A stretch of DNA of 51,614 nt from Candidatus Uhrbacteria bacterium CG10_big_fil_rev_8_21_14_0_10_48_16 (lineage in GTDB: Bacteria > Patescibacteriota > Patescibacteriia > UBA9934 > GWF2-40-263). A program made the position numbers and the translations under genes. Below are positions 4,631 through 13,591 of this stretch, one piece after another. Location of the stretch: positions 35,713-87,326 of the forward strand of contig PFEU01000007.1 of assembly GCA_002793515.1 (NCBI GenBank), given 5' to 3'. Position 1 is the first letter of the stretch; every line of letters starts with the position of its first letter. The notes under the pieces are model-generated. The model did no database searches, was not told the DNA's origin, and was given only the letters and a program-made list of their open reading frames with translations.

Positions 4631-6898
4631 ATGCACCTGACGAAAATAGAGCTCCAGGGATTCAAAACGTTTGCAAAGAAAACCACCCTTTCTTTTCTCG
4701 CTCCCACCGCAGACCGTTGCCCAATTACGGCTGTGGTCGGACCCAATGGTTCTGGAAAATCTAACCTTGCGGATGCCATTCGATGGGTCCTTGGAGAACA
4801 AAGCTTAAAGCTCCTCCGAGGAAAACAATCTGAGGATGTTATTTTTTCTGGCTCTGAAGGAAAAGGACGTTCTGGATTTGCTGAAGTCAGTCTCTCACTC
4901 AACAACGAAGACGGTTCCATGCCGATCGATTATGGATCTGTCACCATCACCCGACGATTGTTTCGCGATGGAACAAGTGAATATCTCCTTAATGATGCCA
5001 AGGTGCGCCTAACGGATATTCAACTCCTGCTTGCGCAAGCCAATGTCGGGCAACGCTCCTATTCCGTCGTGGGTCAGGGGATGATCGATCATATTCTTGT
5101 TTCAACGCCAGAAGAACGAAAAGCGTTTTTTGATGACGCAACAGGCGTTAAACCGTTTCAGATCAAGCGCCACGATGCGGTATTAAAACTCAAACGCACT
5201 CATGAGAATTTGGCAGACGTGGAGATGCTTCTACGCGAGATTGAACCGCGACTACGTTCGCTCAAACGCCAAGCCTCGCGTTTAGAGCAACGCGATGAAA
5301 TCGAAACCAAGCTCCACACCCTCGAGGGACAGTACTATGGCACTCAGTGGTGGAGTCTTGCCGATCAGCTCGACGTGATCAAAAAACAATTTGAAGAAGC
5401 AGACGCACAGATCAAACAAGAACGCCTTGAACTCACGGCACAAGAAAAGACGGCCGATACGATCGAAAACGTCGATGAGAAAAAAGACACGGGACTCATG
5501 AAGCTTCAAGAAGCGTATCGAGCGGTTCAACGAAAACAAAACACCCTGCGTCAAGACCAATTCCAAACAGAAAAAGAAATCGAACTTACCCGCGTACGGG
5601 CGCAATCCAACTGGGCTCCCCTTCCTCTGCTGAAAATTGTTGAGGAAGTCGGATTCATCACAGATGGCATCAAAGGACTTCGATCGCTCAAGGACCTCAC
5701 TGAGATCTACAAAATGATTGATGATCTCCTCTCTCGATCAACAACGCTTCGTAAAAAACTTGAACGTCCAAATCCAGAAGACATCAAGCCAGATCCAGCG
5801 CTTGTTCAAAAACTTGCAGACCTCAAAGGACAAGAAGCCGGAATCAAACAAGAGCTCGCAGAGTTTGAAGCACAGATCGACGCCTACGCCACGAAAGAAA
5901 AAACGGAACGCACAGAACTCATTGAGATGCAGAAAGCGTTGCGCGAAAAACAGCGTCAAATCCACTTGTTTGAAAATCGCCGTAACGAACTTCAGATCAA
6001 TCTCGCACGTTTTGAAGAACGACAACAAGCGCTCATTCGAGAAATGAATGAGTTTATGAAAGATCGTGCGGTGGCCGTACGCGCAGAACGCGCAGAACAG
6101 ACAGAGATGTCGCTAGATGACACCTACACCGAAGTTCAACGTCTGAGATATAAGCTTGAACTCATTGGGGGAATCGATCCTGAGATCATCAAAGAGTATG
6201 AGGAAACGCGTGTCCGTCATGAGTTTCTCGATGGACAGGTTGAGGATTTGAAAAAAGCGATTCGTCACACAGAAAAAGTCATTGTAGAGCTGGATGAACA
6301 AATCGAAAAGCAATCAAAAGACGTTTTTGGAAAGATCAATAAGGAGTTCGAACATTACTTTAAGATTCTTTTTGGAGGAGGCTCCTGCCGATTGATAAAA
6401 CTCACTCGGGAAGACGAAGAGGAATCTATGAATGATGGAGTCACTCCTGATCGAGTATTTGCTGACACAGGGGAAGAGGCTCGAGATAAAGAAGCCGAGA
6501 TCGCCAAGAAGCTGGAGAAGCATCAGGATCCGATTATCGGAATCGATATTCAAGCCACGCCTCCTGGGAAAAAGCTCAAGGCTCTCAATCTGCTTTCAGG
6601 TGGAGAGCGGGCTCTCACATCGATCGCGCTCATCAGCGCCATCATGGCCGTAAACCCTTCCCCATTTGTTTTGCTCGATGAGGTGGATGCTGCGCTGGAC
6701 GAATCCAACACGGTGCGTTTCGCCTCCATCCTCCAAGATCTCTCAAAAAGCTCGCAATTCATCGTCGTCACACACAACCGCGCCACCATGGAACAAGCCG
6801 ACGTTCTCTATGGCGTCACCATGACAGACGAAGGAATCTCCAGTCTGCTCTCGATTCACTTAGAAGATATAGCCGGAGAAGGAACCGCAAGACGATAA
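4631..6898 (+). CDS. smc: SMC-family chromosome segregation ATPase, short (755 aa), no recognisable hinge
   Basis: Walker A VVGPNGSGKSNLADAIRWVLGEQS; signature LLSGGERALTSIALISA; Walker B PFVLLDEVDAALDESN; central part much shorter than canonical SMC. Confidence 0.93.
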   Translation: MHLTKIELQGFKTFAKKTTLSFLAPTADRCPITAVVGPNGSGKSNLADAIRWVLGEQSLKLLRGKQSEDVIFSGSEGKGRSGFAEVSLSLNNEDGSMPIDYGSVTITRRLFRDGTSEYLLNDAKVRLTDIQLLLAQANVGQRSYSVVGQGMIDHILVSTPEERKAFFDDATGVKPFQIKRHDAVLKLKRTHENLADVEMLLREIEPRLRSLKRQASRLEQRDEIETKLHTLEGQYYGTQWWSLADQLDVIKKQFEEADAQIKQERLELTAQEKTADTIENVDEKKDTGLMKLQEAYRAVQRKQNTLRQDQFQTEKEIELTRVRAQSNWAPLPLLKIVEEVGFITDGIKGLRSLKDLTEIYKMIDDLLSRSTTLRKKLERPNPEDIKPDPALVQKLADLKGQEAGIKQELAEFEAQIDAYATKEKTERTELIEMQKALREKQRQIHLFENRRNELQINLARFEERQQALIREMNEFMKDRAVAVRAERAEQTEMSLDDTYTEVQRLRYKLELIGGIDPEIIKEYEETRVRHEFLDGQVEDLKKAIRHTEKVIVELDEQIEKQSKDVFGKINKEFEHYFKILFGGGSCRLIKLTREDEEESMNDGVTPDRVFADTGEEARDKEAEIAKKLEKHQDPIIGIDIQATPPGKKLKALNLLSGGERALTSIALISAIMAVNPSPFVLLDEVDAALDESNTVRFASILQDLSKSSQFIVVTHNRATMEQADVLYGVTMTDEGISSLLSIHLEDIAGEGTARR

Positions 6899-6939
6899 AA
6901 CAAAAACAGATCCGAGAGAGCGGATCTGTTTTTGTTTGA
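6899..6939. terminator. Bidirectional intrinsic terminator
   Basis: AAACAAAAACAGATCCG-agaga-gCGGATCTGTTTTTGTTT. Confidence 0.9.
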
Positions 6940-6944
6940 GTCTC

Positions 6945-7035
6945 CTCAACGCAGGGCTCGAGACGAACTCGAGGACTACGTTGAGGAGCCGCGCGAACGT
7001 GACTCCTCGGGGGGTCACGCCGGGCGGCGCGTGGG
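6945..7035 (-). repeat. Hairpin-chain element copy A
   Basis: CTCAACGCAGGGCTCGAGACGAACTCGAGGACTACGTTGAG hairpin plus GTGAC...GTCAC hairpin; near-identical to copies B and C. Confidence 0.85.
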
Positions 7036-7434
7036 TCAGAGCGGACGAGGGCCGTTGTCGCGAGGCCGACGCTCGAACTTGAGGATCTTGCCCTCACGCT
7101 CGGGCTCAGGGTCATCCTTCTCGACCGGCGGGAGCTTCTGGAAAGAAAGCTTGAACCGGTTGAGGGTGATCTCAAGGTACCCATCAAGTCCCAAGCTGAG
7201 GTACATCATGCCGAGCACCGCCAAAGCGATGACAGGCACGAGCAGACCCTTGGCACCGAAGGCTATGACAGAGAGGGTCAGGCCGACGGAGGCCATGTTG
7301 ATCAGATTCGCCACCGTAAGGACGGTACCTCTCAGCTTCTGATCAGAGAGGATGGTCGACAGGAAGATGAGACCCAGACCGAAGACCATCGGAAGGGCGA
7401 CGACAATCAGAATGATGTAGTCGATGTCGGACAC
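7036..7434 (-). CDS. Uncharacterised protein with about 3 predicted TM helices and charged C-terminal tail
   Basis: 132-aa ORF (GTG start) with hydrophobic segments YIILIVVALPMVFGLGLIFL, LTLSVIAFGA, LLVPVIALAVLGMMYLSL. Confidence 0.7.
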   Translation of the reverse strand: MSDIDYIILIVVALPMVFGLGLIFLSTILSDQKLRGTVLTVANLINMASVGLTLSVIAFGAKGLLVPVIALAVLGMMYLSLGLDGYLEITLNRFKLSFQKLPPVEKDDPEPEREGKILKFERRPRDNGPRPL

Positions 7435-7452
7435 GGTGTCTCCGAATTGGGG

Positions 7453-7527
7453 TCAGTTCAGGAACTGGAGGATCCCACTGCACACGGCGAGCCAGAAGGC
7501 TCCGCAGAGCAGGAGGAGAGTGATCAT
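7453..7527 (-). CDS. Possible 24-aa single-TM micropeptide MITLLLLCGAFWLAVCSGILQFLN
   Basis: Read from sequence; its start ATG overlaps the TGA (ATGA) of a 15-codon upstream frame. Confidence 0.35.
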   Translation of the reverse strand: MITLLLLCGAFWLAVCSGILQFLN

Positions 7528-7574
7528 GGTGCTGAAGTGGAGGCCATCGGTCTCTTCACTCGGATGTTCATCCT

Positions 7575-7736
7575 TCACAGACACTCTGCACGCTCCTGTG
7601 CTTCACGAGCACGGTGGCAAGGGATCTCGGCCGTAACCCGAGCGAGCTCTTGCTCGAGCTTATCGCGATCGTCACCGCCTTCGCGCAGACGTCGCTGAAG
7701 TTCGACAACCTGCTCTTCGAGCGTAGGCTTTTCCAT
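7575..7736 (-). CDS. Small coiled-coil-like protein (MEKPTLEEQVVELQRRLREGGDDRDKLEQELARV...)
   Basis: Heptad-like charged ORF, upstream AGAGGGA ribosome-binding site. Confidence 0.55.
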   Translation of the reverse strand: MEKPTLEEQVVELQRRLREGGDDRDKLEQELARVTAEIPCHRAREAQERAECL

Positions 7737-7785
7737 GGTTCCCTCTTGGAATGAGCACTGGGAAGAAGCTCCCCAGGAGGTTGCC

Positions 7786-7875
7786 CTCAACGCAGAGCTC
7801 GATTGGATCGAGAGCTACGTTGAGGAGCCGCGCGAACGTGACTCCTCTGGGGGGGTCACGCCGGGCGGCGCGTGT
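7786..7875 (-). repeat. Hairpin-chain element copy B
   Basis: CTCAACGCAGAGCTCGATTGGATCGAGAGCTACGTTGAG plus the shared GAGCCGCGCGAACGTGACTCCTC...GGCGGCGCGTG block. Confidence 0.85.
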
Positions 7876-7976
7876 TCGTCACTTGGGGACGGGGACGAAG
7901 TTGAGCCCCGCATCCCGGGCGTCGTGGCAGGCGCTGCGCTCCTCGGGGCGGGCAGATGAGGTTCACTATCGCAGAA

Positions 7977-8558
7977 CTAGTCCGCGACGATCGCCCATTC
8001 GTCCCAGTAGGTAACGCTCTCGGAGGCCAGACGGCGCACCTCCTCGAGGGTCCAGTCATCGGCCTCGTTGTTGCCACCGGCGAGGGCCACCGTGAAGCGG
8101 TAGGGCGTGCGCGGGGCGTGCGGGGCAGCGGAGGCGATCACCGCGACGATGACGTGAGTCACACCCTCGGCGGCTTCGGACTGGATGCGCTCGGCCTCAC
8201 CGGGAATGGTGTTGATCTCGGGGTCGACGAGGTAGGCCTCGACCGTGTAGACCACGACCGCCAGGGCCTCCAGAGGGAGAGCGAACTCCCGACGGAGGAA
8301 GGGGCTCACCACACCGCGGTGCTCACGCAGGACGTAGTCGTCCGGGTTGGTGGTACGCTTGCCCTCGCCCGAGCTCACGAACGCATGCGCGCTCGCGGTC
8401 ATCCGGAGGAAGTGCTGACCCTGGGCGCGATCGGTGGCGGTGTCGTGCACCTGCAGGGCGGCCACGAGAGCCGTGTTGAAGCCGGCCTCGTCGATGACGC
8501 GGGAACCGATAGCCCTCTTATCGAAGGCATGGCAAACCACGGAGGTTGCGAAACGCAT
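7977..8558 (-). CDS. Uncharacterised protein (MRFATSVVCHAFDKRAIGSRVIDEAGF...)
   Basis: Long ORF with AGAGGAG upstream of ATG; no recognised family. Confidence 0.7.
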   Translation of the reverse strand: MRFATSVVCHAFDKRAIGSRVIDEAGFNTALVAALQVHDTATDRAQGQHFLRMTASAHAFVSSGEGKRTTNPDDYVLREHRGVVSPFLRREFALPLEALAVVVYTVEAYLVDPEINTIPGEAERIQSEAAEGVTHVIVAVIASAAPHAPRTPYRFTVALAGGNNEADDWTLEEVRRLASESVTYWDEWAIVAD

Positions 8559-8591
8559 GGAATACTCCTCTAGTGGGAACGGGAATCGTTC

Positions 8592-8683
8592 CTCAACGCA
8601 GGACTCGAAACGAACTCGAGGACTACGTTGAGGAGCCGCGCGAACGTGACTCCTCTGGGGGGTCACGCCGGGCGGCGCGTGGG
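8592..8683 (-). repeat. Hairpin-chain element copy C
   Basis: CTCAACGCAGGACTCGAAACGAACTCGAGGACTACGTTGAG plus the shared GC-rich hairpin block. Confidence 0.85.
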
Positions 8684-9124
8684 TCAGATGGACTTGGCGT
8701 AGCCGACCACGCGGGAGCGCGGAACCACGATGCAGCCGTTGATCTCGACCGTGTCCTTGGACACCTTGGTGATGCGTCCACTGACGTACTCGATCTCCCC
8801 ATCCACACGGACGAGGATCAGGACGCGCTGGATGTCATCCATGAGGGAGATCATGTCTCCCAGCGAGCTGGTCTCGTGGACGTTGCCGAAGCCCGGGATG
8901 GGCGCCGGCTTGTCGCACAAGTACTGGCCGAAGGGACGGCCGACCAGCCCCGAAAAGCGGACGCTGACCAGCTCATCTCGCACACGGAACCCGTGCTCGA
9001 GCTGAACATGGGTCCGAGTCACGCGAACGAGAATTCCGCGCAACGTCCCCCCTGTGACCGTCTCGAACGCGACCTCGCCCTCGTACCGGAGGGCGGTGGC
9101 GAGATCGTCGGTGGTGATGGGCAT
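8684..9124 (-). CDS. Uncharacterised beta-rich protein (MPITTDDLATALRYEGEVAFETVTGGTLRGILVRV...)
   Basis: ORF with GGAG upstream; two related-looking beta segments (TLRGILVRVTRTHVQLE / VSGRITKVSKDTVEIN). Confidence 0.65.
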   Translation of the reverse strand: MPITTDDLATALRYEGEVAFETVTGGTLRGILVRVTRTHVQLEHGFRVRDELVSVRFSGLVGRPFGQYLCDKPAPIPGFGNVHETSSLGDMISLMDDIQRVLILVRVDGEIEYVSGRITKVSKDTVEINGCIVVPRSRVVGYAKSI

Positions 9125-9175
9125 TGGTTGCTCCGTGGGTGGGTGGCAAATGGTCAACTTCGGAATGAAGTTTTC

Positions 9176-9290
9176 CTTGACTGACTTGTCGAGTGGTTAC
9201 TCGACAGTTCGGTTGAGGACCCCGGCGTCGACACGTGATTGGTGCGAGTCGCACCACGTCGGCCGGGGCAGGTCGTTCAGGTGCCCCGGC
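9176..9290 (-). repeat. Hairpin-chain element copy G (diverged)
   Basis: CTTGACTGACTTGTCGAGTGGTTACTCGACAGTTCGGTTGAG hairpin, then CCCCGGC...GCCGGGG hairpin. Confidence 0.6.
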
Positions 9291-9429
9291 GACATCACGT
9301 GTCCAGCCGAGGAACCTCATTCCCCACTTTCTGGCGCGCGTGGGGGGCGCGTTTCAATGATCGTAGAAGAGGAGCGGGTAGGTCATTGATGACCATCCTT
9401 TTTTTGTGACGAACCATTTAATCAGACGT

Positions 9430-10003
9430 TCGTCTTTGTCTGTTTGTCGTTCACACCGCGACCGTGATTGGTGGCGATGCAACGAACGACCGTTTGCGTA
9501 ATCGGACAACGGGATATGGGCGCAACCCATCCAGCGAATCGACTCAGCCGATCAAAGCGCGTGGTTAGCCATCCACCATGCGAGAGGAGATCTGTCTTAA
9601 CTCGTCCAAGACGAGAGGCCAAGATCCAAAGGCCCGTTTGATCAATTGGTTTGCCAGACCTTTGAGCCCATCAATCACGGGCTCCCATGCTTTGGCGCGA
9701 CCCTTCGGAGTGTTGCCACTCCCCGACGTTCCGATTGCTCGGAGGGATTCTTTAAACGGGATTGCTTCGTACTTGTACTCAGAGTTTCTAGCTCCTTTCC
9801 GTTCCTTACTCTCCGCTTATAGAATCCGCGCATAGTACGCCGGGTCATCTGTATCATCCACGACAGGTCGATAACCTGGGTTCGAACCGACACCGAAATG
9901 CCGTCGTTAACCCTCCTGTCGCTTCCTCTCAAAAGATGGGCATGAGCCCTCCTGTTCGCCCGCTCCACCTACGGGCTTGGAATGAGGATACGTCGTCTAG
10001 GTG
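9430..10003 (-). ncRNA. Candidate large structured non-coding RNA
   Basis: No convincing ORF; hairpins CTCGTC-caa-GACGAG (9601-9615), GAGCCC...GGGCTC (9664-9684), GGAGTG-TTGC-CACTCC (9707-9722), TCCGA-TTGC-TCGGA (9730-9743); the last two read as GCAA tetraloops on the minus strand. Confidence 0.35.
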
Positions 10004-10041
10004 GTTAGACGACCCTGCCAGCTATGGGGCACCGGGCAGGG
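9992..10041 (-). other. Paired hairpins just downstream of an island gene
   Basis: GTCGTCTA-ggtggt-TAGACGAC (9992-10013) and CCCTGCC...GGCAGGG (10013-10041). Confidence 0.6.
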
Positions 10042-10056
10042 ACAGTGCTTTGTTGG

Positions 10057-10392
10057 CTACAGCACGATGTCCTCCTCGTCCTCGATCTCGATCCCCGCCT
10101 CGCGGAGATCGCGGTCGATCTGGGCGAGCATGGCGCGGATCCGGAGCTCCTCGATCGAGGTCTCGACCGTGTCCACCTCGATCTCCTCGAGCTCGAAGGT
10201 GAACCCACCCACGCCCGTGAGGGCCTTGGTAGTGGTGTGGCAGTGCTGAACCAGCACCCCGCCCTCGAGGTTCACCCAGATGTTGACCTGCTCGAGGATG
10301 GTCTCGAGGTTGTCGTACTCCCCGATGACGAACCGGACCCTGGAGGTCCTGATGACAGGGACGTAGAACGAGGGCAGAATACGAGCGAGCAT
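10057..10392 (-). CDS. Uncharacterised 111-aa protein (MLARILPSFYVPVIRTSRVRFVIGEY...)
   Basis: ORF with GGAGG upstream; acidic C-terminus. Confidence 0.65.
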   Translation of the reverse strand: MLARILPSFYVPVIRTSRVRFVIGEYDNLETILEQVNIWVNLEGGVLVQHCHTTTKALTGVGGFTFELEEIEVDTVETSIEELRIRAMLAQIDRDLREAGIEIEDEEDIVL

Positions 10393-10437
10393 GCGCTTTT
10401 CCTCCAGTGGGTTCCTGATCAGGGTACTGTTTCATCC

Positions 10438-10560
10438 CTCAACTGAGTATTCGAGACTGCCAACCGGCAGGTCATATTCGAATATTCGGTCGAGGTCTCA
10501 AGCATATGCGTCGTGCTTGAGCCGTGCCCACCAGATCGTGTATGTCTGATGGGAGTGGGA
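10438..10560 (-). repeat. Hairpin-chain element copy F
   Basis: Long hairpin 10438-10494, hairpin CTCAAGCA...TGCTTGAG with GTCGTGC motif, then CCCA..CAGA..TCTG..TGGG hairpin. Confidence 0.65.
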
Positions 10561-10569
10561 CGCGTTCTT

Positions 10570-10809
10570 TCAGCGCTGGCTTTCCTCCTCCTGTCGCCGG
10601 AACTTGTAGCCGACGACGACGTTGTAGGTGAGGAAGCCAAGAAGACAGGCGATCGCGACGATGTCACCGGCGCGCTGACTCACAAAGTCTGCGAGGATGA
10701 TCAGCACGGGAGTACCGATGATGAGAGCAGTGGCACTCTCAAAGTACCTGTACATGGGCTCCTGGGCCCGCCGTTCACAGTAGGTAAGCTCCCTTTCTTC
10801 TTCGTCCAT
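10570..10809 (-). CDS. Small membrane protein with about 2 TM segments (MDEEERELTYCERRAQEPMYRYFESATALIIGTPVLIILADF...)
   Basis: 79-aa ORF, AAAGGGAG upstream of ATG. Confidence 0.65.
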   Translation of the reverse strand: MDEEERELTYCERRAQEPMYRYFESATALIIGTPVLIILADFVSQRAGDIVAIACLLGFLTYNVVVGYKFRRQEEESQR

Positions 10810-10843
10810 GTGGACTCCCTTTGGGAACGTTGGTTGATCGTTC

Positions 10844-11010
10844 CTCAACGTAGGACTCAACTGTGAATTGAGTGCTGTGTTGAGGTCCCCACGTGCGTCG
10901 TGCGTGGGGCCGTGTCGCGGAAGTCGCGACTCCCCTTTTGCCGGCGAATTCCGGCAACAGGGAGGAGATGGGTTACTGAGGTCACGACCAGCCGACGTCA
11001 CTGGTCGTGA
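10844..11010 (-). repeat. Hairpin-chain element copy D (five hairpins)
   Basis: I 10844-10884; II CCCCACG...CGTGGGG 10887-10909; III GTCGCG-gaagt-CGCGAC 10914-10930; IV TGCCGG-cgaatt-CCGGCA 10939-10956; V TCACGACCAG...CTGGTCGTGA 10982-11010. Confidence 0.8.
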
Positions 11011-11013
11011 AGG

Positions 11014-11442
11014 CTAGTCGAAGTCCGTCTCGTTCCAGGGGGCTTCGATGTTGCTGAGGTCGATCTCGTCGCAGTCATCGCCGTCCAGGTCGTCGCAGTC
11101 GTCGTCCTCGTTGTAGTCGAACTGCTCGTACCGGGCGATCTTGATGAGGGTGTCGACGAGCTCGGGCCCGCCGATCTCTTCCAGGACCGGAACGGGGATG
11201 ATCTGGGAGACCTCTCCTTCCAGCTCGAGGACGAGGAGGGCGAAGTGGTAGGGGCGGGTCTGACGCCAGGCCACCAGGTTGGCGGGCTTGGTGTCATCGT
11301 CCGCCTTGAGGACGACGGTGACCCCCTGGGGCACGCCGTCGCGGACGGTCTGGAGGAAGGTCCGGTTGGCACCGTCCAGATCCCCGTTTTCCTTCTGCTC
11401 GGCCGCGAAGCCGAACAGGTTCTCGATATCGGTCCGGTTCAT
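11014..11442 (-). CDS. Uncharacterised acidic protein (MNRTDIENLFGFAAEQKENGDL... EDDDCDDLDGDDCDEID)
   Basis: 142-aa ORF with AGGAG upstream of ATG; first ORF of the minus-strand island operon. Confidence 0.7.
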   Translation of the reverse strand: MNRTDIENLFGFAAEQKENGDLDGANRTFLQTVRDGVPQGVTVVLKADDDTKPANLVAWRQTRPYHFALLVLELEGEVSQIIPVPVLEEIGGPELVDTLIKIARYEQFDYNEDDDCDDLDGDDCDEIDLSNIEAPWNETDFD

Positions 11443-11572
11443 CTCGTGCTCCTATCCGACTTCACCTGAAATCGGATGGGGGTTGGAATGTCGTCAAGCA
11501 CCTGCTCGACGCACGGGGAGGACAGATCGTATAGGAATGGATCCGTCCTTTCCGTGCATGGGCAAGAAAAAA

Positions 11573-11614
11573 GCTGATTACCGGTTACCTTCGTGGAGAT
11601 AACCAATAATCAGC
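11573..11614 (-). terminator. Leader terminator/attenuator hairpin
   Basis: GCTGATTA-tt-GGTTA-loop-TAACC-gg-TAATCAGC followed by TTTTTTCTTG on the minus strand. Confidence 0.7.
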
Positions 11615-11651
11615 CAAGGAACGCCAATAGTGGCTTTCCGTGAACGGACAT
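11610..11651 (-). CDS. Putative 13-aa leader peptide MSVHGKPLLAFLG
   Basis: ATG to TGA between the promoter and the leader terminator; stop codon lies in the 5' arm of the terminator hairpin; GGGGAG upstream. Confidence 0.3.
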   Translation of the reverse strand: MSVHGKPLLAFLG

Positions 11652-11693
11652 TAGGTCTCTCTCCCCAATGAAGTAATTGTATTGAACGGATAT

Positions 11694-11722
11694 ACTATAT
11701 CATTTTTTGACCATTTTGTCAA
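11694..11722 (-). promoter_or_regulatory. Sigma70-type promoter for the island operon
   Basis: Minus strand TTGACA - 17 nt - TATAGT. Confidence 0.75.
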
Positions 11723-11839
11723 TACTATCAGACAGTTATTTAGCTGAATTTAGTGTATTTTTATGTATTCTGAAAGAATATCTGGTTTAAAATTGAATCA
11801 TCCTGACAAAGATCGTCCGAACCACTTTTGACGAAAGAA

Positions 11840-11866
11840 AAAACCGTCCGGGTGTGGGACGGAGGG
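11840..11866 (-). terminator. Intrinsic terminator
   Basis: Minus strand CCGTCC-cacacc-GGACGG followed by TTTTTTC. Confidence 0.75.
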
Positions 11867-11870
11867 GGAG

Positions 11871-12221
11871 CTACTCGCTACGTTCACGCTTCTTGCGCTG
11901 ATGGCGGATGCGCATGCCGTTCTGCGCGAGGGCGGTGGCGAGTTCTGATTGGAGAGCCTCGAACGGGTCGATGAACGTACTCATGCGTTCACGTCCGTTT
12001 TTTGACACCATGGGGAGATACTTCTTGAAGGCCGTTTCCAGATTGGATTCAGCCTTCTGGATCTTCTCGCGCTGAGCCTGCACCGTCTCTGCATCTGCAT
12101 GGCTCGCATGAAGCTGATCGAGCTTCTGCTGGGCGTCCCGCAGAGTCCTTCTGCAGATTTTCAGCCAGTCGAGTGCCTTTCGCAATTTGAGTCCGTTCTT
12201 TTCCAGAGTCAGATCTGTCAT
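11871..12221 (-). CDS. Uncharacterised coiled-coil-rich protein (MTDLTLEKNGLKLRKALDWLKICRRTLRDAQQKL...)
   Basis: ORF from internal ATG with GGAG upstream. Confidence 0.65.
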   Translation of the reverse strand: MTDLTLEKNGLKLRKALDWLKICRRTLRDAQQKLDQLHASHADAETVQAQREKIQKAESNLETAFKKYLPMVSKNGRERMSTFIDPFEALQSELATALAQNGMRIRHQRKKRERSE

Positions 12222-12267
12222 GGGATCTCCGTGACGGAACCAGGAAGAAACTTTCTGGGAGGCTTTC

Positions 12268-12382
12268 CTCAACCGAGAGATCGAGTTTGAACTCGAGTTC
12301 TCGGTTGAGTCCCCAAGCACGTCGTGCTTGGGGCCGTATCGCGAGATGCGATCCCCCCTGCTGGTGAATTCCAGTAAAGGGG
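12268..12382 (-). repeat. Hairpin-chain element copy E (four hairpins)
   Basis: I CTCAACCGAGA...TCTCGGTTGAG 12268-12309; II CCCCAAGCAC-gtc-GTGCTTGGGG 12311-12333; III ATCGC-gagat-GCGAT 12338-12352; IV CTGG-tgaatt-CCAG inside CCCC/GGGG 12355-12382. Confidence 0.8.
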
Positions 12383-12943
12383 CTAGTGCTGTTCGTCAAA
12401 GAGTTCGTCGAGAGCCGTATAAAGCCCGGCAAGGCTTCCGTTGTTGACGATCACATGCGCCGGAACGCTCATGAGCGCAGGCAGGTTCGTATTCCCAGGC
12501 AATGCCTCGATGGCGAGGAACTGTTCCCAGGTAAACGGACCGTCTCCAGCTCGCGCGCGACGGCACCAGCGATCGAAGCGCACCCGTCGATTTGCTTCAA
12601 TCCGCACGAGTTGAAACCCATCGAGGTCAGAGTAGACCTCGACCTCCTCCATATTTCGCACCCCTGTGATGACCACGGGAGTAAAATCCCATTGGCACCA
12701 TCGCTCGAGCACCAGCTCTGAGATGCGTGAGGCGATCCATCCGTACCCAGAACGATCCGCTTCTGCCTCAAAGAGAGCGGAAAGATCTGAAGTCTTCGGG
12801 TTCCAAATCCCTTGAAGAGAAGCGAGCTCGCGAATCCGGTCCGAATGCCCCAACCGAATTGCTTCATGTGTCTCTTGGAGATATTCGGACGCTTCGTCTT
12901 TGCCGGCACAAGGCCAACCGACGATCCCGATCACCATTCCCAT
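12383..12943 (-). CDS. P-loop NTPase/kinase-like protein (dephospho-CoA-kinase/dNMP-kinase-like)
   Basis: Walker A-like GIVGWPCAGKDEASEYL; DFTPVVITGVRNMEEVEVY. Confidence 0.7.
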   Translation of the reverse strand: MGMVIGIVGWPCAGKDEASEYLQETHEAIRLGHSDRIRELASLQGIWNPKTSDLSALFEAEADRSGYGWIASRISELVLERWCQWDFTPVVITGVRNMEEVEVYSDLDGFQLVRIEANRRVRFDRWCRRARAGDGPFTWEQFLAIEALPGNTNLPALMSVPAHVIVNNGSLAGLYTALDELFDEQH

Positions 12944-13010
12944 ACATCCCTCCAGTCATGGTATGTGACAACACAAACTACCAAGGAAAAGCCCTCGCGT
13001 CAATCATCTC

Positions 13011-13039
13011 TTGACGAAACACGGAAAAACTCGTATTGT
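13011..13039 (+). promoter_or_regulatory. Sigma70-type promoter upstream of rpsP
   Basis: TTGACG - 17 nt - TATTGT. Confidence 0.65.
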
Positions 13040-13087
13040 GCGCGCGACCGTCAAACACGCTCATGTTTGATTCATGAACCAATTATT

Positions 13088-13591
13088 ATGCTATCTATTC
13101 GACTTTCACGCGTAGGAACTAAGCGGGCTCCCGTCTATCGTATCGTTGTTATGCCAAAACATAACGATCCTTGGGCTAAGTCCACCGAAATCCTCGGACA
13201 TTACAACCCTCGAAAACAGCCAAGCGAACTCGTCATCAACACAGATCGCACAAAATACTGGATCTCAAAGGGAGCTCAAGCAACAGACACTGTTTGGAAC
13301 CTCCTTATTGATGAGAAGATTATCGAAGGCGAAAAGCGAGGCGTGACCCACATCTCAAAAAAGCGCCAAGGGAAACTTGAAGTAAAGGCGACTGAGAAAA
13401 AAGCGAAGGCTGAAGCAGCTGAAGTACAAGCAAAGGAAGCTAAAGAGAAAGCAGAGGCTGAAGCAGAAGCGGTGAAAGTCGCAGAAGCGGAAGCAAAAGC
13501 AAAAGCTGAAGCGATTCCTGAAGCTGTCACAGAAGAAGTTACTCCTCCTACGGAAGAGGCTCCTGCCACAGAAGAAACACCAGCCGAATAA
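13088..13591 (+). CDS. rpsP: 30S ribosomal protein S16 with long Ala/Glu/Lys-rich C-terminal extension
   Basis: MLSIRLSRVGTKRAPVYRIVVMPKHNDPWAKSTEILGHYNPRKQP; low-complexity tail. Confidence 0.95.
   Translation: MLSIRLSRVGTKRAPVYRIVVMPKHNDPWAKSTEILGHYNPRKQPSELVINTDRTKYWISKGAQATDTVWNLLIDEKIIEGEKRGVTHISKKRQGKLEVKATEKKAKAEAAEVQAKEAKEKAEAEAEAVKVAEAEAKAKAEAIPEAVTEEVTPPTEEAPATEETPAE

Follow-up and report, generated by a model that had tools for sequence, protein, structure and literature searches.

The window, a stretch of 51,614 nucleotides from Candidatus Uhrbacteria (ABY1), contains an array of small orphan genes and seven hairpin elements, all on the minus strand and flanked by smc and rpsP. 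A co-oriented run of small orphan ORFs had been described in a sequence-only reading of this DNA and is borne out here; the promoter and conserved leader at its head (about 11722-11450) were absent from that reading. The promoter (TTGACA-17-TATAGT, 11694-11722, minus strand) is conserved in the relatives G002 and G035, and the leader that follows it (11450-11690, minus) displays 77-79% identity in the same two genomes. Within the leader are a conserved 22-nt hairpin, CATTGGGGAGAGAGACCTAATG (11649-11670), a terminator-like hairpin with a U-run (11567-11614) and further hairpins. When genomes were scanned for exact matches to the leader motif, only two named genomes were returned, one of them Candidatus Uhrbacteria. 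The region of promoter and leader (11450-11722), which includes the terminator-like hairpin, may hold an attenuator or a small RNA. The run ends at a bidirectional terminator-like inverted repeat (6898-6937) with 17-bp perfect arms and A/T-rich ends, which lies between the array and smc, and no clear promoter was seen other than that at the head. The GC-rich island that had been proposed exists in the window (59% versus 47%), but the arrays of G031 and G035 show no clear contrast, and the property is lineage-dependent. Elsewhere in the window ARAGORN calls a tRNA-SeC (32666-32759, plus strand) inside a 1340-aa ORF on the opposite strand; it has no Rfam tRNA match and is probably a false positive.

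In the orphan regions the longest plausible ORF with a Shine-Dalgarno sequence was taken as the gene. At the rpsP end, just before element E, stands a dNMP-kinase-like gene (12383-12943) with a GWPCAGKD P-loop, which matches the PHROG deoxynucleoside monophosphate kinase (1e-13) and AAA_18, and whose homologues adjoin the G035 and G002 arrays. It is followed by a coiled-coil-like orphan of 116 aa (11871-12221; blastp 56% over 111 aa to L040:11894-12241) and, as the first gene past the leader, by a 142-aa orphan (11014-11442) with a homologue in G002. The next orphans, of 79 aa (10570-10809, membrane-protein-like) and 111 aa (10057-10392), belong to no Pfam family, as does the 193-aa orphan at 7977-8558. 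Three overlapping or closely spaced small orphans (53, 43 and 132 aa, two of them membrane-like; 7036-7736) have homologues in the G023 and G019 arrays. The remaining gene encodes a 146-aa orphan (8684-9124) that possibly carries tandem Hfq/LSm-like barrels. This is a low-confidence lead: the single-sequence AlphaFold model has a pLDDT of 55, and its top 50 PDB fold matches are Hfq at E 0.06-0.13. Distant homologues of this protein occur in arrays L039 and L040. Among 120 array proteins scanned, those identified were the kinase, with three members matching AAA_18, and two MopE-like lipoproteins from G008; the other matches were scattered, weak and single. A small Cys-rich family ending in HPxTxCxCxPxPEWQexCHC is found in the arrays of four genomes (L038:15491-15709, L042:10501-10662 and others), and short related ORFs (for example MIKDILETVQFIKE...) lie inside several arrays, on the strand opposite to the array genes, at L046:4905-5204, L047:10304-10573, L042:10003-10338 and L041:10780-10971.

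The repeated hairpin element

The seven elements, all read on the minus strand, are present where they had been placed. A covariance model of hairpin I built from all seven (R1) recovered each of them, and hairpin I is thus one family: E (12264-12382; E 3.7e-13), D (10840-11013; 3.3e-14), F (10434-10569; 3.4e-11), G (9172-9300; 1.1e-12), C (8588-8683; 6.5e-15), B (7782-7875; 5e-13) and A, the last (6941-7035; 4.1e-15). Every element folds more stably than its dinucleotide shuffles, by 3.6 to 10.2 standard deviations (z -10.2 for E, -7.4 for C and -6.1 for D), and none of 200 shuffles was as stable as the native fold in any case. The CTCAAC...GTTGAG core by itself occurs five times in the window against 0.17 expected, and the core of element F, ACGGCTCAAG..CTTGAGACCTC[AG]AC, is common to other genera, as seen in an alignment with the copies of G009, G004, G023 and G039. 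Hairpin I also covaries, with 80 doubly changed paired cells compared with 24.5 in shuffles.

Hairpins I and II abut, as had been claimed, but on the transcribed strand hairpin II comes first. The order in the transcript is stop codon, hairpins IV and III where these exist, hairpin II, hairpin I, a leader and the next start. Four hairpins are present in D, and the extra hairpins of E (IV/III) belong to a block in common with D that is 74% identical over 123 nt, in agreement with the earlier description of these two elements. In A, C, D, E and F the element starts at most a few nucleotides from a stop codon, which for E is that of the dNMP-kinase-like gene itself, while the stop nearest to B among the called genes is about 100 nt away. 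The next Shine-Dalgarno sequence and start lie 30-50 nt past hairpin I. The proposed repetition of one gene, or small gene group, plus one element needs correction at G, which follows no ORF and instead ends conserved noncoding sequence some 700 nt long. Element A has no following gene before the terminator-like repeat at 6898-6937. Rfam 15 covariance models gave no match at E≤1 in window positions 6900-13100; the claim that no named element has such a layout therefore stands, and the literature searches made found no paper describing this array layout.

A noncoding RNA, and the array in relatives

The interval from element F to element G includes a stretch (9300-10022, minus strand) in which all three sense frames are closed. 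It is 70-77% identical in relatives, where element G aligns with the same RNA as its 3' end. The noncoding stretch is about 700 nt long and the structured RNA about 550 nt. In its core (about 9565-9890) compensatory changes occur in 26 of the 58 predicted pairs versus 10.9 in shuffled data, and an invariant motif, AAGGGTCGCGCYAAAGCATRG, was found in 6 of 381 genomes of the class, every one an array carrier. On these comparative grounds the stretch is a new, previously undescribed structured RNA. It resembles the large RNAs OLE, GOLLD, ROOL and HEARO in Rfam in being long, highly structured and of unknown function; unlike these, it has no Rfam match at E≤1 and is confined to array carriers.

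The search of related genomes for intergenic matches, suggested by the sequence-only reading, was positive. An enlarged hairpin I model (R2) detected elements in 18 of the 73 draft genomes of the order, and most of these elements form arrays, usually one per genome, whose gene content differs between genomes. In the window's family the array occupies the smc-rpsP site in nearly all carriers, while in family f4 arrays occur at other sites. The smc-rpsP site is empty in some relatives, G024 and G007 having about 75-100 nt between the two genes. Orphan families reappear across arrays at changed positions in blastp comparisons; the 116-aa protein, for example, has its G004 homologue at the other end of the array. 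Thus, gene content turns over whereas the site and the element stay. In G031 a Y1 (HUH) transposase-like gene sits between the array and smc (L042:12103-12726), with copies of a direct repeat, each some 120 nt long, at L042:11977-12086 and 12603-12723.

No plasmid match was found. A viral origin was considered and rejected, as the viral contigs searched contained no copy of the leader or of the noncoding-RNA motif, and the Cys-rich family and the kinase are without viral relatives. One array family, of 243 aa, occurs in families f1, f4 and f25, in G714 and in a single large viral contig; in this 336-kb contig (L099:4998-5717) the member is 44% identical and is unaccompanied by hairpin elements.

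A second element type

In G008, a member of the same family but of another genus, the same smc-rpsP site holds six two-hairpin elements between orphan genes; their sequence is unrelated and they were undetected by R2. In G093, which belongs to another family of the class, 14 two-hairpin elements, again of unrelated sequence, occupy a site between PfkB and DUF2207 genes, and shorter runs lie between the same two genes in G337 and G332. The G093 locus (L103:5150-18520) has fourteen orphan or lipoprotein-like genes with this second element type, and a comparable promoter stands in front of the f25 array. Structure and place are kept in G008 and G093 while sequence changes.

The 3' arm of hairpin I in G093 is the Shine-Dalgarno sequence, which pairs with CCTCC in every copy and sits a few nucleotides ahead of the start. 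Indeed, the predicted probability that the Shine-Dalgarno sequence of the next gene is unpaired has a median of 0.03, and is below 0.3 in 14 of 14 cases. The f25-type element displays compensatory changes, with covariation of the upper stem in G093. Elements of this type that are predicted to bury the Shine-Dalgarno sequence also stand at three successive junctions of the G008 NAD salvage operon (L112:8289-10225), whose genes encode NadD/NAD kinase, NAPRTase and NAD synthase. Gene capture plays no role in this operon. The presence of the f25-type element in a conserved NAD operon, where it controls access to the next start, therefore indicates an RNA device and not a cassette site.

Roles of the elements

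The Uhrbacteria locus appears to represent a gene array of a new kind, in which the hairpins probably separate adjacent genes. The reading that we put forward, and hold at about an even chance of being right, is that the array is an operon of orphan genes with one strong promoter, whose repeated element folds in the RNA and insulates the cistrons of a shared message. In such a fast-changing operon, hairpins II and I would fold back to back past each stop codon, or past each small gene group. The element would form in the shared message, at a distance that a ribosome terminating at the stop codon would not cover, and the double hairpin would separate that ribosome, together with the 3' end of the cistron, from the next start region. 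As the hairpins would hold adjacent cistrons apart, each gene or group with its element would be a self-contained unit that could enter, leave or change place in the array while its neighbours stayed undisturbed. We infer that the elements are transcribed, that the window version insulates translation and perhaps protects 3' ends, and likewise the mode by which genes are exchanged. Of the roles listed in the sequence-only reading, translation insulation and RNA processing are thus favoured and integron-like recombination is disfavoured, because the two-hairpin plan recurs with unrelated sequence, the Shine-Dalgarno sequence is buried in the second type and the element occurs in the NAD operon. 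Also in line with insulation are the compensatory changes in hairpin I and in the f25-type element, the single strong promoter with its conserved leader, the relatives in which the smc-rpsP site is empty, and the position of most elements immediately behind stop codons; within a genome, repeated copies extend from the stop codon precisely as far as hairpin I does at its 3' side. In conflict with insulation, the window family leaves the Shine-Dalgarno sequence outside hairpin I and unburied, with a median unpaired probability of 0.38 and the start codon a median of 47 nt downstream.

It could be argued that the locus is instead an integron-like cassette array, in which hairpin I is a single-strand recombination site, a gene plus its element is a mobile cassette, and a tyrosine or other recombinase is encoded elsewhere. 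The layout is indeed cassette-like, as in integron arrays and attC sites (including CALIN): co-oriented and mostly orphan genes, each with its stop codon followed by an imperfect palindrome, one head promoter and a fixed chromosomal site with varying content. Related genes are present in different arrays and positions, AAC and GTT triplets stand in 51 and 52 of the 58 hairpin I arms, respectively, and homology blocks start or stop inside this hairpin. A cassette-like way of working is possible because genes appear exchanged and homology blocks have these boundaries. It should be emphasized, however, that attC sites are recognized by RYYYAAC and GTTRRRY core boxes and by extrahelical bases on the folded bottom strand (PMC3053210), while in the arrays RYYYAAC occurs in 3 of 58 elements, GTTRRRY in 1 of 58 and both in none. 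Judged from the consensus, in which 1x1 and 2x2 internal loops interrupt a symmetric hairpin I, the stems appear near-symmetric with no clear extrahelical base. The window element adds an abutting hairpin II, and the core sequence is lost between lineages, the G008 and G093 versions lacking AAC/GTT, while an element of the same type as theirs resides inside the NAD operon. IntI (TIGR02249) exceeded the cut-off in none of 15 carriers, which are draft genomes, and in several carriers the one tyrosine recombinase gene is Xer-sized and lies away from the array. We consider the integron-like explanation unlikely. IntI, a tyrosine recombinase and a Y1 transposase were each considered as a necessary partner, and none was supported. 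REP elements with RAYT/Y1 transposases are also repeated intergenic hairpins, but the array elements are confined to one locus and unscattered, and Y1_Tnp is absent from carriers G019, G023, G035 and G093 (4 of 11 searched) while present in non-carriers.

A role in mRNA processing or 3'-end protection, whereby an RNase cuts the double hairpin or the hairpin blocks exonucleases and each cistron gains a separate stable message, is consistent with the very stable folds, with the closure of the noncoding RNA by element G and with the location of the elements on the 3' sides of genes, the last gene (at element A) included. That A has no gene behind it is easier to reconcile with a function at 3' ends or in recombination than with one as a leader; a 3'-end role is therefore also likely for the elements. 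Nevertheless the part conserved in G093 is a Shine-Dalgarno stem, a feature of translation, and as the full explanation we consider processing rather unlikely. Highly improbable is the view that these are ordinary terminators or attenuators between independent genes. They are GC-rich hairpins past stop codons, but in the sequences listed their stems have no U-runs after them, terminator-like hairpins with U-runs standing instead at both ends of the run, and the only clear promoter is that at the head. To return to insulation, hairpins that bury ribosome binding sites are known between cistrons, and the 3' arm of the G093/G008-type hairpin is likewise a Shine-Dalgarno sequence. The arrays differ in that one element family, with a second abutting hairpin, stands at nearly every junction between orphan genes, and in that the array element lies where the terminating ribosome does not reach, the Shine-Dalgarno sequence in the window version being outside the hairpin.

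A bias towards the RNA strand was also considered. The first count gave 59 G.U against 14 A.C pairs, but a symmetric recount gave 43:23, with nearly all of the excess in one genome (20:19 in the remaining genomes and 15:14 in G093). The recount was not decisive, and the argument was therefore withdrawn. Sense and antisense fold energies likewise gave no decision between the strands.

A broader proposal, which we advance tentatively and rate as rather unlikely, is that the locus is a fixed-site ABY1 cassette operon of orphan genes, in which each captured gene has its own RNA insulator, promoter and leader are shared, and the large RNA, possibly with the Hfq-like protein, acts on the elements. 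If this were true, the array would be an integrase-free platform for gene capture in which RNA structure makes any inserted gene expressible. Genomes of Patescibacteria are very small, yet these lineages retain a site for orphan genes, a reused RNA element and a new large RNA. The element, the leader and the noncoding RNA represent three new RNA families that are testable in ordinary laboratory bacteria. Should the elements allow a single promoter to serve foreign genes that are each expressed independently, they would provide a second natural solution, beside integrons, for the storage and expression of captured genes.
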